Origin: Synergistetes bacterium HGW-Synergistetes-1
Lineage (GTDB): Bacteria; Synergistota; Synergistia; Synergistales; Synergistaceae
Length of the DNA: 64,000 nucleotides
Assembly: GCA_002839185.1 (NCBI GenBank)
Contig: PGXO01000010.1
Span: 1 to 64,000, forward strand
Reading direction: 5' to 3'
Shown piece after piece: positions 10,907 through 23,553 of this stretch; position 1 is the first letter of the stretch, and every line of letters starts with the position of its first letter. The notes below the pieces were generated by a model. That model was given only the letters and a program-made list of their open reading frames with translations, had not been told where the DNA came from and searched no databases. The translations under genes were made by a program, and so were the position numbers.

Positions 10907-10952
10907 TGACCGGTGCGACACAAATTAATAGACGAAGATAAGGAGTATGACA

Positions 10953-11744
10953 ATGGAAGATATGACGATCCACGAATTTGATTTTGCACTCATAAATGAA
11001 TTTTTCATAGAACTTGAACGCCAAGGGCCAGGCAGTCCCGAAGAAACGATCAGGGCGTTGAGTTTTATACGGAACCTTTCAGATAAAACAAAAATAGCAG
11101 ATCTGGGCTGCGGCACAGGTTTTCAGACAATGGTCCTGGCACAAAACACAGAAGCCACAATAACCGCACTGGACCTTTTCGCCGGTTCGATCGACAAACT
11201 TAACGCAAAAGCCAAAATACTTGGTTTACAGAACAGGGTCAAGGGTGTCGTCGGTTCAATGGACGATCTGCCCTTTGGAGACGAGGAATTCGATATCATA
11301 TGGTCTGAGGGAGCCATTGGCAATATAGGTTTTGAAAAAGGCCTGGCCCACTGGAAGCGCTTCCTCAAAAAAGAGGGATACGTCGCCGTGACATATGAGT
11401 CATGGTTTACAGACGAGCGCCCCGCTGAAATTGAAAAATGGTGGACAGACGCAGTCCCTGAGATCAGCACGATAGCGCACAATATTGCTGTCATGCAAAA
11501 AACAGGATACGTTCCAGTTGCCGCATTTACGCTGCCCGAAACCTGCTGGACAGAAAATTATTTTGCACCGCAAAAAGCCAGACAGGAGGAATTCCTGAAA
11601 AAGCACGCGGGGAATAAGGCCGCCGAGAATATGATCGCATTCATGAGGCGCGAGGCAGAACTATATGAAAAATACAAGCGGTACTATGGGTATGTCTTCT
11701 ATATTGGCAAAAAAGTTGGCAATTGGGGCATATCGGAGCGCTAG
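10953..11744 (+). CDS. SAM-dependent methyltransferase (class I)
   Basis: A 263-aa methyltransferase with motif I IADLGCGTGFQT, acidic loop ALDLFAGS, motif IV region FDIIWSEGAI and the post-motif GFEKGLAHWKRFLKK. The start follows AGGAG with 7 nt spacing. It sits behind the TetR gene, probably in one operon. The substrate is unknown. The last seven residues (NWGISER) and the TAG stop come from a 126-bp palindromic repeat element that starts at 11720, so the native C-terminus was probably replaced by insertion. Confidence 0.85.
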   Translation: MEDMTIHEFDFALINEFFIELERQGPGSPEETIRALSFIRNLSDKTKIADLGCGTGFQTMVLAQNTEATITALDLFAGSIDKLNAKAKILGLQNRVKGVVGSMDDLPFGDEEFDIIWSEGAIGNIGFEKGLAHWKRFLKKEGYVAVTYESWFTDERPAEIEKWWTDAVPEISTIAHNIAVMQKTGYVPVAAFTLPETCWTENYFAPQKARQEEFLKKHAGNKAAENMIAFMRREAELYEKYKRYYGYVFYIGKKVGNWGISER

Positions 11745-11845
11745 CTTAGCAACACTTGCGGTCCTGCGCGTCAACGTATGCCCAATACGCCTCCGCTTGA
11801 ACCACTGCGTGTTGCGTCGCTATCATCTCCGATCTGCCCCAATTG
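11720..11845. repeat. 126-bp palindromic element, full copy (type I)
   Basis: Terminal inverted repeats CAATTGGGGCATATCGGAG and CTCCGATCTGCCCCAATTG match at 18 of 19 positions, and the inner sequence continues the dyad (CTAGCTTAGCAAC with GTTGCGTCGCTAT), so the whole unit can fold into one long hairpin. Exactly 126 bp, the same as the copy at 21268-21393. It covers the end of the methyltransferase gene. No coding capacity. Confidence 0.8.
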
Positions 11846-17277: not shown

Positions 17278-17968
17278 CTGCCAACACCCTTTACGGAAAT
17301 ATCTGGATTTTTTAAAGTTCCGCTTCTGAGAGAGTTCTTGTTAAAAACCGATATGTCAGAGAATATATATTGAAGCTTTGACTGCTTTTCAGGTCTATAT
17401 GACATTTTTCAGACATCATTTAAAAAGGCCTAATAGTTTAATGATATTTGTCTAAATAACTTAATTTTCAAATAAAAGTATACAGTAATGATTCGCAAAA
17501 CGCAATTATTTTAAGGTGTGCAGGGGGATCTGCAGCGCCTGCGCTGCAAAGAATTTGCGGCTTTTCGAGCCGCGGGGAATCATGGCGTACACGCCATAAT
17601 GAATGAAACTCAAATTAATCAATGATATAGCCCCTCCTTGTCGCTCCCCGACGATGCTAAACGGGAGTCCGGCGGCTTTGGGTTTAGGGGTTGTAAATCC
17701 AGTAATAGTCAAGACCCAGAGACACTGGACCTCCGATCTCAAAGCGCATTCGAAATGGTTCGAGCACTGAGGTCAATTTAAAAAGTTTTCCTAACGGAAA
17801 ACAGTGCTCTCCCGATAAAGGCACTTGGGGACGATGATAAAGGACTAAGGTCTCAGGTTGTAACAACTGCTTGCCGATAGCTTGCCAATGTTTGCTAACA
17901 GCTTGACTGTCTTTACGACTGCTTCACGGCGATCAAATCCCCACTTCGCGCGGCCGGGATAAATACAA
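17278..17968. repeat. Intergenic stretch with repeat modules, including a 78-79 bp double-hairpin unit
   Basis: 17278-17505 is AT-rich upstream DNA of the large sensor gene with no gene. From 17520 on, modules appear: GCAGCGCCTGCGCTGC (17532-17547), CGGCTTTTCGAGCCG (17558-17572), ATGGCGTACACGCCAT (17581-17596), and at about 17732-17809 one copy of the double-hairpin unit that forms the array at 22853-23089. The left flank CCAGTAATAG and right flank CTCCCGATAA are shared with the other copies. Confidence 0.7.
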
Positions 17969-20787: not shown

Positions 20788-20799
20788 AGAGCGGCCGGG

Positions 20800-21267
20800 G
20801 GTCCATTAAATGGTGAAACTGCGACAAATACGGTCGCGTGAAACAATGGTGAAGCGATAGTGAAACAGTTGTAGGGACGAGCAAACAATAGATTATGGCA
20901 AAACCCAGTAATAGACAAGGTTCAAAGCCACTGGTTCCCCGATCTCAAAGCGCATTCGAAATGGTTCGAGCACTGAGGATAATTTTTAATGTTTTCCTTA
21001 CGGAAAACGGTGCTCCCGATAAGAGCATACGGGAATGACGGGGAGAGGCCCGAGGTTGAGTTTATATAATTGCCGATGCTTGCCAATTGCTCGCCGCCGG
21101 AGATCTTCCCGGCTGCATTAAACAAATGCTTCCCAACCGCTTCCCGGCGATGAAATCGCCACTTCGCGCGGCATCTTCATGCCGCACTTCGCCACTGTCT
21201 CAGCATACGTCGAAGTGAAGGATTTTGAGTGTTGCTAAGTCAGCGCCGCAAGATGCCCCAAGTGCCG
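20800..21267. repeat. Mosaic of repeat modules
   Basis: In order: the TGCGACAAATACGGTCGCG module (20819-20837; also 22735-22746 region and inverted at 5110 and 27040), the AACCCAGTAATAGACAAG flank, one double-hairpin unit (about 20937-21015) containing GTTTTCCTTACGGAAAAC, the TTGCCAATTGCTCGCCGCCGG module (21080-21100), GGCGATGAAATCGCC and GCGGCATCTTCATGCCGC, and a half type I element (about 21193-21262). The same order recurs at 22690-23340. Confidence 0.75.
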
Positions 21268-21393
21268 TAATTGGGATTTAGAGCGAGTGATAACGACGCA
21301 ATGCGCAGCGGAGCCTCACGAAGGCGTATATCAATACGTCGAAGTGAGGCTTCGCAAGCTTTGCTAAGTTAGCGCCGCTCTAAATCCCAATTA
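21268..21393. repeat. 126-bp palindromic element, full copy (type I)
   Basis: TAATTGGGATTTAGAGCG at the left end and CGCTCTAAATCCCAATTA at the right end are perfect 18-bp inverted repeats. The dyad continues inward (TAACGACGCAATGC with GCTTTGCTAAGTTA; AGCCTCAC with GTGAGGCT; GTAT with ATAC), so nearly the whole unit pairs with itself. It lies 7 bp beyond the stop of the DUF4143 ATPase gene. Confidence 0.85.
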
Positions 21394-21400
21394 CCTGGGA

Positions 21401-22621
21401 TTAAAGATAATTGACCGGTATAACTTTATCCTCACCATGAAGGGTGATAAGACTGTCATACATGCAAACAACACCGCCTTGTCCCCGTTTTATCCCGGGG
21501 ATCTTATCGAGGATACGGAAGGCGGAAATATCTTTTTTACCCGGGTCGGCATGTTTTTTGATCTCAATCGGATGTAGCGTTTGGTTCTGCAGGATCAGCA
21601 GGTCGATCTCATTCATATCCTTGTCACGGTAAAAGAAGAGCGGGATATCTTTCCCTTTGTTCAAGTAACTTTTTATGACTTCTGCAATTACAAAAGTCTC
21701 GAAAAACGCTCCTGCCATTGCCCCGTTTTGCATTACTTCAGATGTGTTCCATTTTGTAAGATAAGCAGCAAGTCCCGTATCAAGAAAATATATCTTGGGT
21801 GTTTTAACGGCACGCTTAATAAGGTTGTTATGATAAGGCTGAAGCAGATAAACGACCTGCGATGTCTGCAATATTGATAACCAACGTTCTGCAGTTGGTC
21901 CACTTATATTCACATCACGGGCAACTGACGCAAGATTTAAGAGCTGACCTGTGCAGGCCGCCAACACTGTCATGAATTTCAAAAATTTGCTTTCATCGCC
22001 GACTTGCGTCAGATCACGCACGTCACGCTCTATATATGTTTTGACATAAGAACCATAGAAAACTGTCCAGTCAACATCCTTTTCGGCATACACCTGAGGC
22101 ATGCTCCCTTTAAAAATAGTATTCCATATTTCCTTATAGGATATTTCCTTTAGATCCTTTTTCCTGCCTTCATAGTATTCCTCTGTCGGGATAAAAGGGT
22201 CATCAAACACGACTCCATTAATTTCGCGAAGTGACAGCCCAAGCAGTTCGATGAAACCAAGTCTTCCCGCAAGCGACTCAGTGACATTCTTCATCATTAC
22301 AAATCGCTGGGAGCCCGACATATAGAATTGTCCTTTTTTATGTTCTGAATCAATTATCATCTTTATGTACGGAAAGAGGTTAGGGGCATATTGAATTTCA
22401 TCCACGAATACCGGCGGTGGGGTGTTCTTAAAAAAAGTCCCGGGTTCATCCCGCGCTGACTGAAGCATGATCGGATCATCAAGTGTCACATATCTGAAGT
22501 TCTCCGCGATCCTTTTCAAAAGGGTCGTTTTGCCAACCTGACGAGGCCCGGTAACAAGCACCGCACCAAACATTTTTGATATATTTTTAACTGTTTCCTC
22601 TGCGTGCCTATGAATATACAT
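21401..22621 (-). CDS. AAA ATPase with DUF4143 domain
   Basis: A 406-aa protein. The N-terminal AAA_14 domain has Walker A TGPRQVGKTTLL, Walker B-like PVFVDEIQY and sensor MSGSQRF. The C-terminal DUF4143 region contains FFYRDKDMNEIDLLI and HPIEIKK, a nuclease-like E-x-K arrangement typical of this family. The start at 22621 has AAGGAG with about 7 nt spacing. These solitary ATPases are common in accessory DNA and their role is unknown. The gene is bracketed by repeat elements on both sides. Confidence 0.88.
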   Translation of the reverse strand: MYIHRHAEETVKNISKMFGAVLVTGPRQVGKTTLLKRIAENFRYVTLDDPIMLQSARDEPGTFFKNTPPPVFVDEIQYAPNLFPYIKMIIDSEHKKGQFYMSGSQRFVMMKNVTESLAGRLGFIELLGLSLREINGVVFDDPFIPTEEYYEGRKKDLKEISYKEIWNTIFKGSMPQVYAEKDVDWTVFYGSYVKTYIERDVRDLTQVGDESKFLKFMTVLAACTGQLLNLASVARDVNISGPTAERWLSILQTSQVVYLLQPYHNNLIKRAVKTPKIYFLDTGLAAYLTKWNTSEVMQNGAMAGAFFETFVIAEVIKSYLNKGKDIPLFFYRDKDMNEIDLLILQNQTLHPIEIKKHADPGKKDISAFRILDKIPGIKRGQGGVVCMYDSLITLHGEDKVIPVNYL

Positions 22622-22689: not shown

Positions 22690-22852
22690 GGAGGGGCGGC
22701 CAGGGGTCCCATTAGATGGTGTAACTGCGACAAATACGGTCGCGTGAAGCCGTGGTGAAGGGATAGTGAAACGGTTGTAGGGACGTGCAAGCATAGGCAA
22801 GTAAAAGGTTGGGGCAAAACCCAGTAATAGACAAGATTCAAAACCACTGGTT
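22690..22852. repeat. Repeat modules leading into the 79-bp array
   Basis: Copy of the 20800-20936 segment: TGCGACAAATACGGTCGCG (22726-22744), the TGAAACGGTTGTAGGGACG core and the left flank CCCAGTAATAGACAAG of the double-hairpin unit. No gene is seen. Confidence 0.7.
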
Positions 22853-23089
22853 TCCCGATCTCAAAGCGCATTCGAAATGGTTCGAGCACTGAGGTTAATT
22901 TAAAAAATTTTCCTGACGGAAAATAGTGCTCTCCCGATCTCAAAGCGCATTCGAAATGGTTCGAGCACTGAGGATAATTTTTAATGTTTTCCTTACGGAA
23001 AACGGTGCTCTCCCGATCTCATAGCGCATTCGAAATGTTTCGAGCACTATGGTTAATTTAAAAAGTTTTCCTGACGGAAAATAGTGCTC
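22853..23089. repeat. Three tandem copies of a 79-bp double-hairpin unit (type II)
   Basis: Units 22853-22931, 22932-23010 and 23011-23089 are each exactly 79 bp and start TCCCGATCTCA. Each has a small hairpin around TTCGAAATGGTTCGA and a second, TTTTCC...GGAAAA, enclosed by GAGCAC (unit positions 32-37) pairing with GTGCTC (74-79). The third unit differs at paired positions (CATAG with CTATG). The array is followed by TCCCGATAAG. Confidence 0.9.
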
Positions 23090-23348
23090 TCCCGATAAGG
23101 GTCGTCCTGGACGACGGAGAGAGACCCGAGGTTGAGTTTATATAATTGCTTGCCGATGCTTGCCAATTGCTCGCCGCCGGAGATCTTCCCGGCTGCATTA
23201 AACAACTGCTTCCCAACCGCTTCCCGGCGATGAAATCGCCACTTCGCGCGGCATCTTAATGCCGCACTTCGCCACTGTCTCAGCATACGTTGAAGTGAAG
23301 GAGCATTGCGTTTTGCTAAGTCAGCGCCGCGAGATGCCCCAATTGCCG
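23090..23348. repeat. Repeat modules between the array and the composite element
   Basis: Nearly the same as 21016-21267: TTGCCAATTGCTCGCCGCCGG, GGCGATGAAATCGCC, GCGGCATCTTAATGCCGC and a half type I element ending GCCCCAATTG. Duplication of a roughly 400-bp block (compare 20905-21262) seems likely. No gene is seen. Confidence 0.7.
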
Positions 23349-23553
23349 TAATTGGGGCAGATCGGAGATGATAGCGACGCAACATGCAGTGGTTCATCTC
23401 GAAACGCACTCGAAATATTTCGAATGCCATGGACTATCTAAATGTTTCCTTAACAGGAAACAGCATTCTCATGAAAGCGGAGGCGTATTGGGCATACGTT
23501 AACGCGCAGGACCGCAAATGTTGCTATGCTAGCGCTCCGATATGCCCCAATTA
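23349..23553. repeat. Composite: type I element with a 79-bp type II unit inserted
   Basis: The ends are TAATTGGGGCAGATCGGAG and CTCCGATATGCCCCAATTA. Outside 23397-23475 the sequence follows the reverse complement of the 11720-11845 element closely. The extra 79 bp (23397-23475) are a diverged type II unit; 205 minus 126 equals 79. The right end supplies the TAA stop of the EAL-domain gene (23551-23553). Confidence 0.85.

Follow-up and report, generated by a model that had tools for sequence, protein, structure and literature searches.

The 79-bp block lodged within one copy of a 126-bp palindromic repeat of the window (the whole stretch of 64,000 nucleotides analysed here) is probably, though far from certainly, a copy of a small, non-coding and non-autonomous mobile module that inserts at the junctions between the 5' arm and the loop of stem-loops and is moved in trans. 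Precise ends, a recurrent site, the formation of arrays and a folded body speak for such a module, whereas the fact that only one event lies outside of REP-like stem-loops, and that no enzyme was found, speaks against it. The earlier note on this DNA, which described the filled palindrome, missed the regular host of the unit, the REP-like stem-loop, and it is the filled/empty pairs of these stem-loops, not the palindrome pair, on which the proof that the units come and go rests.

The regular site of the unit lies in a 33-bp REP-like stem-loop, at the point where the 5' arm meets the loop, and 0, 1, 2 or 3 units stand there head to tail. When empty, this stem-loop reads CTGGATCCCCGA-TnnnnGCAYT-CGGGGACGACG and is predicted to fold into a 7-bp stem with a 9-nt loop, the unit being inserted exactly at the end of the 5' arm; 11 exact empty copies are present in the same genome (the reversed pattern gave 0), and 68 distinct ones in the collected loci. 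A unit profile search of these loci returned 85 distinct unit copies, 84 of them with a left end, and 83 of those 84 follow either a REP-like 5' arm or another unit, the sole exception being the insert in the window's palindrome (all of these unit and stem-loop counts are lower bounds). The units are 77-80 bp long, begin with TCTC... and end with ...CYGA, are non-coding and contain internal hairpins. The stem-loops of the window that carry them are the following:

17725-17836, forward strand: REP-like stem-loop with one a-type unit (17737-17815)
20931-21041, forward strand: one-unit REP-like stem-loop (unit 20943-21019), the unit being without 2 bases of the array's middle unit
22847-22858, forward strand: 5' arm of a REP-like stem-loop, CTGGTTTCCCGA, the orthologous stem-loop in G001:C28 being empty
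22859-23095, forward strand: three head-to-tail 79-bp a-type units (22859-22937, 22938-23016 and 23017-23095)
23096-23117, forward strand: loop remainder and 3' arm of the array's stem-loop, ending in GGACGACGG

The tandem array (three 79-bp units, TRF score 404) had been noted before at 22853-23089; the three units of 79 bp stand, but their natural phase is 22859-23095, because it is this phase that matches both hosts. Four subtypes of unit-carrying stem-loops were distinguished (CAYTCGGG, CATACGGG, GCGTCC and ACCGGG), for which matching empty forms were also seen, and unit types and stem-loop types are mixed, with subtypes a, b and d each occurring in more than one stem-loop subtype (a in at least two, b in three as well as in the palindrome). 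As the c-type unit of G016, which belongs to a different genus, has been dispersed together with its arms as one composite, many of the copies need not represent separate unit insertions. Insertion is mostly after CCGA, and also after GGCA and TTCA, with no conserved target tetranucleotide; the 7-bp repeat TCCCGAT on either side of the a-type units might be taken for a duplication, but the right ends of b-type units are consistently different.

The comings and goings of the unit were followed by comparing related sites, for which three tracts of the window are needed:

20791-21322, forward strand: duplicated block A, containing the one-unit stem-loop and the first part of an empty palindrome
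22701-23404, forward strand: duplicated block B, containing the three-unit stem-loop and the first part of the filled palindrome
21267-21394, forward strand: empty palindrome-family element of another subtype, sharing the unusual GTAATT..AATTAC termini, in the corresponding position of block A

Between the gene at 21407 and the beginning of the array at 22859, the window is matched by G001:C28, which past this orthologous site has an empty stem-loop vs. 3 x 79 bp in the window; in both, the 3' arm ends 21 nt after the site. Within G001 itself, two duplicated blocks of one contig hold 2 units (79 + 78 bp) and none, respectively, with the left flank identical at 149/156 positions and the right flank recognisable past the hairpin. 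Blocks A and B of the window hold one unit vs. three, their flanks being identical at 129/148 and 272/300 positions; the block A unit and the middle unit of block B agree in all of the 77 aligned bases, although the block flanks are only 87-91% identical, and the three block B units differ among themselves by 5-11 of 79. Judging by these identities, such a pattern would not have come from a plain recent tandem duplication of one unit and would rather fit a separate arrival or local conversion. Filled and empty pairs thus differ by whole units (0 vs. 3, 0 vs. 2 and 1 vs. 3). G002 has the neighbouring genes of the 17.7-kb and 20.9-kb sites, but at these orthologous places the repeats are absent.

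The body of the unit is folded, with two helices common to the 66 distinct full-length copies. Helix B (GAGCAC/GTGCTC, also GAATGC/GCATTC, GGGCAC/GTGCCC and GGACAC/GTGTCC) is 91.6% paired with 75 both-side changes, slid controls being 31-59% paired with at most 20 changes, and the inner helix C (TTTTCC/GGAAAA, also TTTCCT/AGGAAA and TTTACC/GGTAAA) is 96% paired with 62 both-side changes, vs. 48-74% and at most 13 changes in its slid controls. Altogether, the predicted fold of the unit accounts for 137 both-side changes, the shuffle maximum being 56; as these changes follow the subtypes, they represent few events, though several subtypes agree. A third conserved hairpin near the left end of the unit is without compensatory support.

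The palindrome which also received a unit, and its empty partner, are organized as follows:

23349-23396, forward strand: left half of the palindrome (ERIC-like, filled copy), ending in ..GGTTCA, recognised by identity to the reverse complement of 11720-11845
23397-23475, forward strand: inserted module, consisting of a 78-bp b-type unit, TCTC..CATGA (23397-23474), and an extra A (23475)
23476-23553, forward strand: right half of the 126-bp palindrome, as aligned with 11720-11845
11720-11845, reverse strand: empty 126-bp palindrome (fold z -6.5)
Junction expected for an empty form of 23349-23553: GGTTCAAGCGG

The element at 23349-23553 is a 126-bp imperfect palindrome with 79 extra bp, and the extra block that had been reported at 23397-23475 is borne out by the alignment with the reverse complement of 11720-11845, in which 120/126 aligned bases are identical and the single gap is 79 bp long. 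The empty element is predicted to form a long hairpin (-37.5 kcal/mol, with 0/200 shuffles as good), and the single-strand fold of the filled copy has a z of -6.7; for the 28 distinct full-length copies of the family, the consensus fold contains 36 pairs, 21 of them changed on both sides, with 95.6% of cells paired vs. 86% when shuffled and 30-38% when slid. In its size and as a long imperfect palindrome the element is like ERIC, the 127-bp enterobacterial palindrome, but it is unlike ERIC in sequence, and a search against E. coli (20,395 records; blastn words of 11, E 0.01) gave no match. Half-palindromes (a right half with a different left hairpin), many of which are seen across the genome, immediately precede the full elements of both duplicated blocks, at 23283-23347 and 21203-21266. 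A methyltransferase-like ORF, 10947-11744, enters the empty palindrome, which supplies its last residues (..WGISER) and stop codon. Palindrome-family copies are also found within a few hundred bases of the ends of contigs C2, C3, C7, C9, C12 and C13 of G000, and these repeats therefore probably break the assembly.

The previous description of the block as a diverged relative of the tandem unit holds, with 50-53 of 79 positions identical and scores of 68-77 vs. a shuffled maximum of 39. More exactly, the block is of sister subtype b, and while the gap and the tandem units do both measure 79 bp, as had been pointed out, this is partly a coincidence, since the b unit is 78 bp in its usual host and the 79th base of the gap is the extra A. 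The closest relative found of the insert, 96% identical, resides in another species of the genus (G006:C326), not in the same genome. The filled junctions read GGTTCA^TCTC..CATGA^A^AGCGG: the left end of the insert is exactly that of the unit, and at the right end the CCTGA of the unit carries one substitution and is followed by an additional A (CTCATGAA vs. CTCCTGAT). To within 1 bp, the ends in the palindrome (GGTTCA^TCTC..TGA^) are the same as those in the stem-loops (CCCGA^TCTC..CYGA^T), and target duplication is not evident at the palindrome. In the predicted fold of the empty palindrome, the site GGTTCA^AGCGG falls in an internal loop, between two unpaired A's past the arm GGTTC, and so both hosts seem to have been entered at, or one base past, the end of the 5' arm, a parallel which, for one palindrome event, is suggestive only.

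Insertion is the right direction at 23349-23553. The block was sought in the 28 distinct full-length palindrome copies and is present in none, empty palindromes being the rule in the same genome and in the genus, and this makes 11720-11845 the empty form, not a deletion. The earlier note had named an ancestral long form, shared by all relatives and reduced at 11720-11845 by the loss of the block, as the outcome that would overturn its filled vs. empty reading; with 28/28 relatives short, the same deletion would have had to happen independently many times over. The corresponding element of block A is short too, the filled copy and its empty partner are 95% identical, no supporting point was found and the long form is barely credible. 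Blocks A and B both end in a family element with GTAATT..AATTAC termini, empty in A and filled in B, but the two elements are of different subtypes, so that the control falls short of a clean pair of alleles. That two repeats were merely joined in the draft genome is hardly less implausible: several contigs of the same genome do end near such repeats and the assembly is strained, but the flanks are continuous sequence within a 163-kb contig, and the closest match of the insert is in another species rather than being a second copy in the same genome. The G002 ortholog of the gene adjoining 23553 has no filled palindrome next to it. The claim that the pair documents a unit moving as a discrete module can be kept as far as the discreteness is concerned, but 23349-23553 and 11720-11845 are paralogous, not alleles of one site, and a single palindrome event is insufficient alone to reveal the way in which the module moved. 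Elements of the 126-bp type gave no support to a fixed insertion point, a test of which the note had suggested, since only one family copy carries the block, no second filled 126-bp element exists among the copies and the recurrent site is in the 33-bp REP-like stem-loop; one further candidate, the junction G016:C17 (query 32-73), turned out to be an ordinary stem-loop with a unit.

As for how the unit might travel, the module would move as a folded single strand, its enzyme being supplied in trans and now absent from the genome or not recognised, and would insert without a clear target duplication. The terminal CCCGA of the a-type units copies the 5' arm of the stem-loop and might thereby restore an intact site at each insertion, and head-to-tail arrays could then arise because a fresh site would be left each time; in the predicted fold of 20929-21043, the hairpin is re-formed at the right end of the unit. 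The stronger proposition, that this is a new miniature mobile DNA in which a folded single strand homes to the stem/loop junctions of other palindromic repeats and a 3' end copying the target's 5' arm rebuilds the target, so that units pile up, is offered only tentatively and may well prove too bold. Comparable doubt attaches to illegitimate recombination/template switching, in which the unit would have been copied in after pairing of the palindrome with a filled stem-loop over short stretches common to both, array length coming from unequal exchange and the filled/empty stem-loops from gene conversion, all of it without any transposition of the unit's own: the left contexts do share TGGTTC (REP-like arm CACTGGTTCCCCGATCTC at 20929-20946; palindrome CAGTGGTTCA) and the right sides AAGCG, duplicated blocks are plentiful in the region, a transposase was not found and the right end of the insert is altered, yet recombination at the shared stretches would bring in a left-hand CCCG and a right-hand TAAG, neither of which is present, the junctions falling instead on the unit's own ends, and identical ends recur in the four stem-loop subtypes. 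Less probable still is that the units are functional RNA modules under selection in transcripts, a role that has been considered for BOX too, with the nesting incidental; the compensatory changes that two helices show in 66 distinct full-length copies would agree with it, but single-strand DNA transposition would preserve the helices equally well, Rfam at gathering and relaxed thresholds returned only tRNAs, and several truncated copies of the unit persist.

A mobile module moved in trans calls for an enzyme, and the host (a 2.17-Mb Synergistaceae genome whose same-genus relatives include UBA6101) offers no obvious one. The Y1/HUH transposase (PF01797) has 0 hits in the host genome and in G001, the two richest in units, and the IS110 recombinase (PF01548) none in the genus; either the enzyme has been lost, or another enzyme or plain recombination acts. 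The Y1 transposase was rejected as the mobiliser, being absent from the host and, in G002 and G007, bordered by its own GGGGTCAGACCTACACATT repeats, which are unrelated to the unit. These Y1 genes, of 311 aa, adjoin the GGGGTCAGACCTACACATT repeats at L185 (G002:C17), L187 (G002:C3) and L186 (G007:C53), with tandem copies at L187 and an in-frame stop in the G007 copy. The conserved left end of the unit occurs in 9/188 Synergistota genomes (8/8 of the host genus and 1 of a sister genus), the reversed left-end control giving 0 hits in the same 188, and the unit-bearing public records are nearly all Synergistaceae MAGs. The plasmid and phage collections searched gave no match, and a pattern scan of IMG/VR viral contigs gave none. 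Units in a Caldisericia MAG (L162, JAQVSG010000108.1) and a Clostridiaceae MAG (L178, JAAYPO010000104.1) have the same flanks as known loci (the 17.7-kb site of the window and the host-genus locus G006:C211), and both contigs were probably binned with the wrong organism.

Much of this has counterparts already described, namely, BOX-type inner tandem blocks, Correia forms, nested REPs, transposase-less CGTC-REPs and REP-targeting IS. As in the boxA - n x boxB - boxC elements of Streptococcus (PMC3049150), two outer modules surround 0 to several inner tandem copies, the copy number differs between loci and the inner module folds for the most part independently of the outer ones. The likeness is one of architecture only: here a 33-bp stem-loop forms the outer element, the unit of 77-80 bp contains internal hairpins, target duplication is not evident and one of the inner modules lies within an unrelated palindrome. 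The Correia/NEMIS repeats of Neisseria (forms of 107 and 155 bp; PMC2229807) are likewise palindromic repeats that may or may not contain an internal block, of 50 bp in their case, but here only one palindrome copy is filled and the block also exists independently in another family of repeats. The CGTC-tagged REPs, with which no transposase goes and of which dimers nested in palindromes have been reported (PMC3733652), also resemble the stem-loop: its reverse strand, CGTC-GTCCCCGAG...TCGGGGATCCAG, has the CGTC tag and the CCA(G) tail of the published consensus, again without a transposase. However, it carries an inserted unit, and its predicted stem of 7 bp and loop of 9 nt (~9-11 nt) depart from the 8-9 bp and the 4-5 nt of most published families, which is why it is called REP-like here and not a CGTC-REP member. 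IS1397, IS621 and ISPpu9/10 also have fixed insertion points within short palindromes, in their case REPs (PMC1525189), but they encode a transposase, and ISPpu9/10 make 2-bp repeats, whereas the unit is non-coding and 77-80 bp long. Regarding the IS200/IS605-derived (REP/REPIN) elements, the unit has subterminal hairpins (the covarying helices B and C and the conserved left-end hairpin), but Y1 (HUH) hits are confined to G002 and G007. No description of one inner module that occupies stem/loop junctions in two unrelated palindromic hosts was met with in the literature consulted.

A module of REP loops found once inside a larger unrelated palindrome is a clear example of the nesting of small mobile repeats, and the empty, single, double and triple sites in two unrelated hosts make up a well-bounded natural system for studying how the smallest repeats multiply without a travelling transposase, which is a general question for CGTC-type REPs as well (PMC3733652). 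One of the truncated units, at 202-280 of L151 (G004:C102), is cut off after ~22 bp directly upstream of the start of a gene, which reads MKICFVGTGYVGL and is UDP-sugar dehydrogenase-like.
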